From: Limisphaerales bacterium
GTDB taxonomy: Bacteria; Verrucomicrobiota; Verrucomicrobiia; Limisphaerales; AAA164-E04
Length of the DNA: 32,738 bases
Assembly: GCA_024761205.1 (NCBI GenBank)
Contig: JAMASS010000048.1
Coordinates: forward strand, 1 to 32,738
Direction of reading: 5' to 3'
The notes below the pieces were generated by a model, which was given only the letters and a program-made list of their open reading frames with translations, searched no databases and had not been told where the DNA came from. A program made the translations under genes and the position numbers. Positions 19,233 to 23,371 of this stretch are shown here, one piece after another (the first letter of the stretch is position 1; every line of letters begins with the position of its first letter).

Positions 19233-20033
19233 CTAGGCGACGGCTCGCTGCCCTGCTTGGCGGCGTCGATGCCAAAGGGCGAAGGCGCCCAAGCCCAAGG
19301 CAAAGAAGAGCGCATACTCCGAGGGTTCCGGCACCGCCGTCTGGAGCGCAAAGCTGAAAGAAAGAGGATTGCTGGGATCATCCGGACGACTCCACTCATG
19401 CTCATCCCAAACGTACGGCCTATCTCCAATCGACCACCCCTCTGCAGCTTCCACAGACTCTGTATTTGACAGAGACACAACGTAAAAATCATCCTCTGTG
19501 GCGTCACGATCCTCATACGCCAGCCAATAGGAGACCCCCGGTTGCAAGAGAACCGTGCGGGGGTTGAAGCTATAGTTTCCCTCAATCAACAAGTCCGGCA
19601 GGGTCAAGGTCGCAATCGTCTCTCCAGGTAAGTCCGTGTTGTCATCGTTTCGATAGATTTTGGCCTCAAAACCGCTGGGATTCCCCCTGGCTTTCCCAAA
19701 ATGCATGGTGATGATATCCAGCTGCCAGACGCTGTCGCCCCTCTCCCGACCGTAATCGGGAATCGGGCCGACTTCGAACCGGAGGGCCAGCCCCCCATCC
19801 AGATTGTGGCTAACGGATTGCCCCCTCAGGGTATTGAGGGCGACGACGGCAGAGGCGTCAGATTGAAGGGCGAGCGCGGTCAGGAGGGCGGCGAGGGTGA
19901 GCTTAAGCCCTTGGCCCCTGTCCGCCCAGGGCGGTCTGTCTTCAAGCGATAAACTCGGGGGGGGGGGTACTCTCCGCGAATGTCCGGGTGAAGTTAATTC
20001 GGTTCCAAGTTTCATCATCTCTGCGCATAACAT
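19233..20033 (-). CDS. PEP-CTERM surface protein (choice-of-anchor-like domain)
   Basis: A 266-residue exported protein. The C-terminus has the PEP-CTERM sorting signal: VPEPSEYALF, a hydrophobic helix (FFALGLGAFALW) and a basic tail (HRRRQ), recognised by exosortase. The body (NIGGLALRFEVG-like start, VWQLDIITMHFGKA, FEAKIYRNDDN, NPRTVLLQPGVSYWLAYED, NPLSFSFALQT) is a beta-sandwich of the kind labelled choice-of-anchor. The signal-peptide core, LKLTLAALLTALALQSDASA, lies about 43 residues in. The n-region ahead of it is translated through an 11-base C tract on the coding strand (19957-19967, four prolines). No ATG, GTG or TTG occurs in frame between the tract and the signal core, so expression depends on tract length. 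Start candidates are 20033, 20018 and 20015. Confidence 0.82.
   Translation of the reverse strand: MLCAEMMKLGTELTSPGHSRRVPPPPSLSLEDRPPWADRGQGLKLTLAALLTALALQSDASAVVALNTLRGQSVSHNLDGGLALRFEVGPIPDYGRERGDSVWQLDIITMHFGKARGNPSGFEAKIYRNDDNTDLPGETIATLTLPDLLIEGNYSFNPRTVLLQPGVSYWLAYEDRDATEDDFYVVSLSNTESVEAAEGWSIGDRPYVWDEHEWSRPDDPSNPLSFSFALQTAVPEPSEYALFFALGLGAFALWHRRRQAGQRAVA
19957..19967. repeat. Homopolymer of 11 G (C on the coding strand)
   Basis: Eleven consecutive G on the plus strand inside the 5' part of the PEP-CTERM gene. Tracts of this length slip readily during replication. A change of one base would take the upstream starts out of frame with the rest of the gene. It could also be a site of sequencing error. 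Confidence 0.8.
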
Positions 20034-21921: not shown

Positions 21922-23022
21922 GTGATTCGGAACATCATTTTTGACTGGTGTGGGACACTGATGGACGATCTAGAAGCGGTTTGGAAGGCGACCAACACGA
22001 CGCTTGAGAAGTCGGGAGTTGCACTGCTCTCTCTGGATGTGTTTCGTCGGGAGTTTGAGTTGCCGTTTCGGCCGTTTTACGAACGTTACACGCCCCACGT
22101 GGAGGAATCGCAATTGGAATCCTGGTATGTTGAGGCGTTTCACCAGGAGCAAGATTCGATCAAGCCTTTTGCTCACTCATCCGACTTTCTCAAGTATTGC
22201 CACCGGCAGGGAATCGCGATGTTCGTTCTCAGTTCCATTCACGAGAACCATTTCGAACAACACCTGAAGATCGCGCGTTTCGGTCGGTATTTTCGGGAAA
22301 CCTACGTCGGTGTCCGAGACAAGCGAGACAAGATCCAAGAAATTCTCGAATCCCATCGTATGGTCCCAGAAGAGACTCTCTTCGTCGGGGACATGCAACA
22401 CGATATCGACGCGGCCAAGCATGGCGGTACGCTTTCCTGCGGGGTTCTCACGGGCTTCAATACGCTTCAACAGCTGCAAGACCGACGGCCCGATTTGATC
22501 GTCAAACATCTCGGCGAGTTGCAGCGTTTGTTGCAATCTCATCAAGGTTCTCTACCAGGCACGAGCAACGGGATTTCCGGTGATTCCAAGTTTCCAATTT
22601 CCACAGTAGGCGCTCTGATCTTCGACTCGTCGGAACGTGTTCTCATGATCCAAACCCATAAATGGTCGAACAAGTGGGGGATTCCCGGAGGAAAGATACA
22701 GCATGGGGAAACAGCAGAAGACGCTCTACGGCGTGAGATTGGTGAAGAAACCAATATCACGATCAAAGACATTCAGTTTGTGATGGTGCAAGACGCCATT
22801 CGTCCACCGGAGTTTTATCGACCAGCACATTTTCTCCTGCTCAACTACACCTGCCGTGCCGTGCCGCCCCTTGAGACCCGTTTGAACCATGAAGCCCAAT
22901 CCTTTGAATGGGTTCCCATAGAACAAGCCCTCGAAATGGATCTGAATATCCCGACGCGTAAACTGATCGACAACGTTAAAAAACGCACCGCATCAACCTG
23001 TATCGACTCAACCCCAATCTGA
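21922..23022 (+). CDS. HAD phosphatase-Nudix hydrolase fusion
   Basis: About 366 residues from the GTG at 21922; an upstream ATG at 21805 would add 39 residues that look non-coding. The N-terminal HAD domain (about 1-205) has motif I FDWCGTLMDD (nucleophile D8; position +2 is C10 instead of Asp), motif II S104 (FVLSS), motif III K137 (RDKRDK) and motif IV FVGDMQHDID (D157, D161). A linker leads to a Nudix domain (about 225-360) with WGIPGGKIQHGETAEDALRR and REIGEETN, matching GX5EX7REUXEEXGU except Asn for the final Gly. The stop is separated by one base from folB. Dihydroneopterin triphosphate pyrophosphohydrolases are Nudix enzymes, and a phosphatase is then needed, so a folate role is an attractive inference. 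Confidence 0.88.
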   Translation: MIRNIIFDWCGTLMDDLEAVWKATNTTLEKSGVALLSLDVFRREFELPFRPFYERYTPHVEESQLESWYVEAFHQEQDSIKPFAHSSDFLKYCHRQGIAMFVLSSIHENHFEQHLKIARFGRYFRETYVGVRDKRDKIQEILESHRMVPEETLFVGDMQHDIDAAKHGGTLSCGVLTGFNTLQQLQDRRPDLIVKHLGELQRLLQSHQGSLPGTSNGISGDSKFPISTVGALIFDSSERVLMIQTHKWSNKWGIPGGKIQHGETAEDALRREIGEETNITIKDIQFVMVQDAIRPPEFYRPAHFLLLNYTCRAVPPLETRLNHEAQSFEWVPIEQALEMDLNIPTRKLIDNVKKRTASTCIDSTPI

Positions 23023-23023
23023 A

Positions 23024-23371
23024 ATGGACCAAATCATCATTGAAGATTTGGAAGTCTATTTCCAAATCGGCGTCCCAGACAAAGAACGCGCCCAACCACA
23101 AAAGCTGCACCTATCCGTTGTCGTTGAGCATTCGTTAGATGCCGCCGCGCGATCCGACGATCTTTCACAAACCATTGATTACGATGCACTCACCGAACAA
23201 CTGATCCATTTTGGAGAGAGCAAAGAATGGAAACTCCTCGAACGGCTAGCACATGACATTGTCCGCTGGATCCTCAGCGAGCACGGTGGAGATCAGGTCA
23301 CAGTAGAGGTGAAGAAATTCATCATCCCCAACGCTCGCCACGTCGCCGTGCAGTTAACCCGCTCGAAGTGA
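23024..23371 (+). CDS. folB: Dihydroneopterin aldolase
   Basis: A 115-residue protein of normal FolB length. It starts DQIIIEDLEVYFQIGVPDKER, where the family has a conserved beta strand, the I-G substrate region and an E/R-containing loop. LHLSVVVEHSL, SQTIDYDALTEQL with the conserved D-Y, ERLAHDIVRWIL and VTVEVKKFIIPNARHVAVQL follow. The enzyme splits 7,8-dihydroneopterin to hydroxymethyl-dihydropterin and glycolaldehyde in folate synthesis. The ATG overlaps the end of the HAD-Nudix gene almost exactly (TGA-A-ATG) and has no ribosome site of its own, so it is probably translated by coupling. Confidence 0.93.
   Translation: MDQIIIEDLEVYFQIGVPDKERAQPQKLHLSVVVEHSLDAAARSDDLSQTIDYDALTEQLIHFGESKEWKLLERLAHDIVRWILSEHGGDQVTVEVKKFIIPNARHVAVQLTRSK

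Follow-up and report, generated by a model that had tools for sequence, protein, structure and literature searches.

A HAD-Nudix fusion protein encoded beside folB in Verrucomicrobiota as a strong candidate for both dephosphorylation steps of folate synthesis

In this study, we analyzed a locus of a Limisphaerales bacterium (Verrucomicrobiota) that raises the question of which enzymes remove the phosphates of dihydroneopterin triphosphate (DHNTP) on the way to folate. A non-specific phosphatase is "believed" to take off the last phosphate ahead of the FolB step (PMC1971073), a view that leaves this removal with no assigned gene in most organisms. In the window, by which we mean the whole stretch of 32,738 nucleotides analyzed (contig JAMASS010000048.1, assembly GCA_024761205.1), a gene for a protein with a HAD and a Nudix domain directly precedes folB, and the original prediction held that the Nudix half removes pyrophosphate and the HAD half the remaining phosphate, in one polypeptide translated together with FolB. 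Our analyses suggest that the protein is a strong candidate for both of these dephosphorylations in vitamin B9 synthesis, and it is probably a bifunctional folate-pathway enzyme that carries out both.

The fusion gene occupies positions 21922..23022 of the + strand and encodes 366 amino acids from a GTG start, which is backed by conservation, as V/M-I-R-N-I-I-F-D-W stands at the same point in relatives. The predicted union of the two domains in one protein was borne out, since this single frame matched both Pfam HAD_2 (81.3 bits, residues 5-174) and NUDIX (PF00293; 85.1 bits, residues 228-350), each far over its cut-off. The N-terminal phosphatase-like HAD domain, of class IA with a C1 cap, spans residues 1-205 (21922..22536, +), and the Nudix domain, placed from the Pfam match and a sequence alignment, lies at 22594..23001 (+). 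An AlphaFold2 model built with 41 sequences displayed two well-folded domains (mean pLDDT 92.8) joined by a flexible linker at about residues 215-222, and Foldseek likened the N-terminal part to HAD-IA proteins of the phosphoglycolate-phosphatase type and the C-terminal part to Nudix proteins of the NudI/MutT type. The matches of the Nudix domain among PDB entries included AtNUDX1 (E 2.9e-10) and NudB (E 1.2e-7), in profile searches that assign both domains at the superfamily level only, not to a substrate.

The folB gene (23024..23371, +) encodes a dihydroneopterin aldolase of 115 amino acids from an ATG start. The protein scored 89.3 bits against PF02152 (cut-off 31.8) and 71.6 bits against the TIGR00525 equivalog, just under the cut-off of 72.15, and the gene is the sole folB copy of the 4.94-Mb host assembly. 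The stop codon of the fusion gene lies one base from the folB start, as had been noticed (TGA at 23020-23022, a single A, then ATG at 23024). The accompanying claim that folB has no ribosome site of its own holds insofar as no Shine-Dalgarno core was found in the 20 bases upstream of its ATG; as an argument for coupling it is weak alone, because none precedes the GTG of the fusion gene either. The pair is flanked by a sulfatase gene on one side and an S8 peptidase gene on the other, both on the - strand, and therefore forms a separate + strand unit, for which a promoter and terminator scan returned nothing above chance. Elsewhere in the window, positions 19233-20033 (-) encode a protein without a Pfam match, which carries a C-terminal PEP-CTERM-like sorting signal, VPEPSEYALFFALGLGAFALWHRRR.

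The link with folB proved to be conserved well beyond the window. All retrieved loci were scanned with HMMs that we made for each of the three domains, and 96 HAD loci were retained after removal of near-identical copies. The folB gene was next on the same strand, or fused, at 57 of the 63 HAD-Nudix loci that were informative and at 22 of 29 informative loci with the HAD domain only, an adjacency whose chance probability per genome, estimated from genome size, is roughly 1 in 10,000; stop and start codons at these loci often overlap or lie a few bases apart. The HAD and folB genes stand apart in one family (f65) and a few others. Thus, the fusion is not found mainly away from folate genes, and it recurs beside folB in other genomes. 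We also considered that any phosphoglycolate-phosphatase-like HAD might sit near folB. This was rejected on a wide score gap, as 44 of 289 genomes of the phylum reached at least 254 bits in a search with the HAD family profile and every other HAD scored at most 106 bits, and on the absence of FolB within about 2.5 kb of the eight HADs of the phylum that are closest to the family.

Four architectures were observed: HAD-Nudix followed by folB, HAD followed by folB, HAD-FolB in one frame and HAD-Nudix-FolB in one frame. Single HAD-FolB frames were found in an Akkermansia clade (L076, which is 'Candidatus Akkermansia intestinigallinarum', L086, L087, L090 and L091) and separately in one other genus (L089). 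The triple fusion is an open frame of 528 amino acids in the closed genome OX638380.1 (L038/L115), the closest relative, from the same genus, whose locus is syntenic with the window and keeps the flanking sulfatase and peptidase genes. In the tree of HAD domains, for which the bootstrap stopped short of full convergence, HAD-FolB needs two origins and the triple fusion one more, and the HAD-Nudix label must have changed nine times or more to fit the well-supported branches. This tree suggests, as its best reading, repeated loss of the Nudix domain with the HAD domain staying with folB. Because Akkermansia-type genomes join FolB to the HAD domain without a Nudix domain, it is the HAD and not the Nudix domain that forms the core folate partner. 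The assignment to folate synthesis is strongly supported by the conserved adjacency together with the at least three independent FolB fusions, and a family tied to FolB by both gene order and repeated independent fusion offers a concrete gene to test.

The surrounding pathway is in place in the host genome and its relatives. FolE2 and FolK were each present in 19 of 19 genomes tested and dihydropteroate synthase (DHPS, FolP) in nine of nine, so DHNTP should be made and used; only one FolB was encoded in 25 of 29 genomes. Canonical FolE was found in none of the 19 genomes tested, and a route without FolE, of the kind suggested for Chlamydia, was dropped on account of FolE2 in all 19. From domain identity, linkage, fusion and pathway presence, all observed directly, we infer substrates, order and mechanism as follows. 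FolE2, recognized by sequence, would make 7,8-dihydroneopterin triphosphate; the Nudix domain would take off pyrophosphate to leave the monophosphate; the HAD domain, with D8 as nucleophile and Mg2+ on D8 and D157, would take off the last phosphate to give dihydroneopterin; and FolB, recognized by sequence in the next gene or in the same frame, would cleave this to 6-hydroxymethyldihydropterin for use by FolK and FolP. The order of steps agrees with the architecture: the phosphatase step directly precedes that of FolB, and the HAD domain has the tightest connection with FolB, while the pyrophosphatase step is earlier and the Nudix domain is added to the HAD/FolB pair in most of the order's lineages. 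The predicted folate role has strong support from context, namely adjacency, the at least three independent fusions and the presence of FolE2, FolK and FolP. The predicted assignment of the first step to the Nudix half and the second to the HAD half is unproven, as the Nudix domain is no closer to NudB than to other types and the HAD domain is without the usual second Asp.

With regard to the Nudix domain, its Nudix box (GKIQHGETAEDALRREIGEETNI; 22690..22758, +) has the catalytic REIxEE intact, and GKIxxGExxxxALRREIxEET, which contains the REUxEE core of Nudix hydrolases, is conserved. The sequence resembles MutT and NudI at least as much as it does NudB, and against the NudB-type model NF006961 it scored 33.1 bits, compared with a curated cut-off of 103. 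As to a separate NudB in the same genome, none of 146 genomes of the order had one over the curated cut-off of this NCBIfam model; the absence is a weak negative, because the model is narrow and reached its cut-off in only one of 14 control genomes. For this reason we dropped it as a presence/absence test for another DHNTP pyrophosphatase. The resemblance to the house-cleaning types NudI and MutT, along with the dispensability of the Nudix domain in many lineages, could instead point to a damage-control or overflow enzyme that cleans wrong or oxidized pterin phosphates or nucleotides outside the main flux. We consider this quite improbable, since the protein is near-universal in the order, and is tightly linked and fused to FolB, and the pathway has no other assigned phosphatase.

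The fused type of Nudix domain was present in 12 of 289 genomes of the phylum and joined to HAD in 11 of these 12. The sole stand-alone copy, in genome G335 from another class, directly precedes a gene with a pterin-binding PF00809 domain, which it overlaps by one base. That gene scored 87.9 bits compared with the DHPS cut-off of 162.6 and is therefore a FolP-like paralog, and the pair independently ties the Nudix part to pterins, albeit with less specificity. At this locus (L098:2277-3490, -), a QueE-like gene of the radical-SAM type lies upstream and another Nudix gene downstream, and the true DHPS of G335 is encoded elsewhere in the genome.

The HAD domain displays the fold and the catalytic framework of subfamily IA. 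Motif I, D8-W-C-G-T-L-M-D-D16 (21943..21969, +), holds the Asp nucleophile; motif II is Ser104 (22231..22233, +), a Ser or Thr in all sequences; motif III is the invariant Lys134 (22321..22323, +); and motif IV, G156-D157-M158-Q-H160-D161 (22387..22404, +), supplies the Asp pair. Across 98 distinct sequences, D8, W9, G11, T12, D16, K134, D157, M158, H160 and D161 were invariant. The second Asp of the canonical DxD motif, two positions after the nucleophile, is absent from all 98; the position is occupied by Ser in 86 of them and by Cys in the other 12, among which is the window protein. In known HADs, loss of this Asp is expected to cripple ordinary hydrolysis of phosphate esters. With Ser or Cys in place of the acid/base Asp, the chemistry must therefore differ, or the domain has another role. 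One such role would be that of a degenerate domain that acts next to FolB as a scaffold or as a sensor of pterin phosphates, with the Nudix domain alone catalytic in the main path and a general phosphatase doing the last step. The loss of the motif I general acid/base in every member favors such a role, which we nevertheless judge unlikely: D8, T12, Ser/Thr104, K134, D157 and D161 show little or no variation among sequences of about 35% identity, which is unusual for a dead enzyme, and when one domain is lost it is the HAD that stays, not the Nudix.

If the HAD domain is an active phosphatase, as we prefer, another invariant residue may take over from the missing Asp. In the HADs of the phylum closest to this family, that position is Asn (DWNGTL) and the DD and GDxxHD motifs are likewise present, and in both groups loss of the canonical acid/base is accompanied by a His just before the second Asp of motif IV. 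H160 or D16 may substitute, although the choice of residue is speculative. A phosphatase of the HAD type working without the usual general acid/base poses a mechanistic question in its own right. A sister HAD group from other lineages of the phylum (L131-L138), with the motifs WDWNGTLxDD and GDTxHD and thus Asn at the +2 position, is not near folB.

The altered motif I also resembles that of phosphonoacetaldehyde hydrolase (PhnX), DWAGT, being DW[S/C]GT in this family, and the HAD gives weak matches to the PhnX family. The substrate of PhnX is chemically similar to glycolaldehyde phosphate, which FolB would release if it cleaved dihydroneopterin monophosphate directly, leaving the HAD to act on this product. 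Precedent comes from an annotation in PMC5041015 of archaeal-type aldolases that act on the monophosphate. This course of events is very unlikely, as the HAD alignment is without the invariant cap Lys needed for the Schiff base of PhnX and the FolB encoded in the window is a standard member of PF02152.

Several known systems resemble parts of the proposed one. First, a Nudix protein, FolQ, is the DHNTP pyrophosphatase of L. lactis and Arabidopsis (PMC1971073). L. lactis FolQ, Arabidopsis NUDX1 and E. coli NudB share the Nudix fold, the Nudix box and a folate role with the window protein but are stand-alone enzymes, whereas the window Nudix is fused to HAD. Second, a fused FolQ-FolB protein was reported in 2007 for Parachlamydia sp. 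UWE25 (PMC1971073, Table 2), so that a second member of the PVC bacteria has FolB joined to a candidate DHNTP pyrophosphatase; compared by description, that protein differs in that no HAD domain is mentioned. Third, the best sequence and fold matches of the window HAD are HAD-IA proteins like phosphoglycolate phosphatase (PGP; 2ah5, 3sd7 and 3mc1), which have no folate link, and the window protein falls far under every PGP cut-off; 2ah5 and 3sd7, the two aligned, have the canonical DxD motif I. Fourth, HADs have been recruited in vitamin pathways for dephosphorylations long called non-specific, some of them revealed by fusions. A HAD phosphatase fills the missing step of riboflavin synthesis, and the HADs of the thiamin and riboflavin pathways act on other substrates and, so far as is known, carry the usual DxD motif. 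For the thiamin pathway, a passage of PMC4921024 cites HAD enzymes as filling the missing phosphatase step. We found in the open-access literature no named dihydroneopterin monophosphate phosphatase or HAD-Nudix folate fusion, and neither a HAD that accompanies FolB nor the triple HAD-Nudix-FolB architecture was found described there. With about even confidence, we propose that the HAD family could be the first dedicated family of dihydroneopterin monophosphate phosphatases, spread over several orders of Verrucomicrobiota including Akkermansia, with Ser or Cys for the acid/base Asp beside the invariant H160 and D16, and that many members, joined to neighboring pathway enzymes, would form two- or three-step polypeptides leading from dihydroneopterin triphosphate towards 6-hydroxymethyldihydropterin.

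The family occurs in Akkermansia, a gut bacterium, and across a large environmental phylum. HAD-Nudix is near-universal in the host order, where it was full length in most of the 146 genomes sampled, and it was also detected in other orders and families of Verrucomicrobiota (among them Methylacidiphilum and genomes G400, G397, G223 and G363). Genomes with the HAD domain only are without the fused Nudix subfamily, and a pyrophosphatase is thus still needed there; G166, G178, G377, G217, G411 and others combine a HAD-only gene with FolE2 and no member of this subfamily. In addition, two genomes carry second, HAD-only copies beside the HAD-Nudix fusion (L116 in G133 and L117 in G045).
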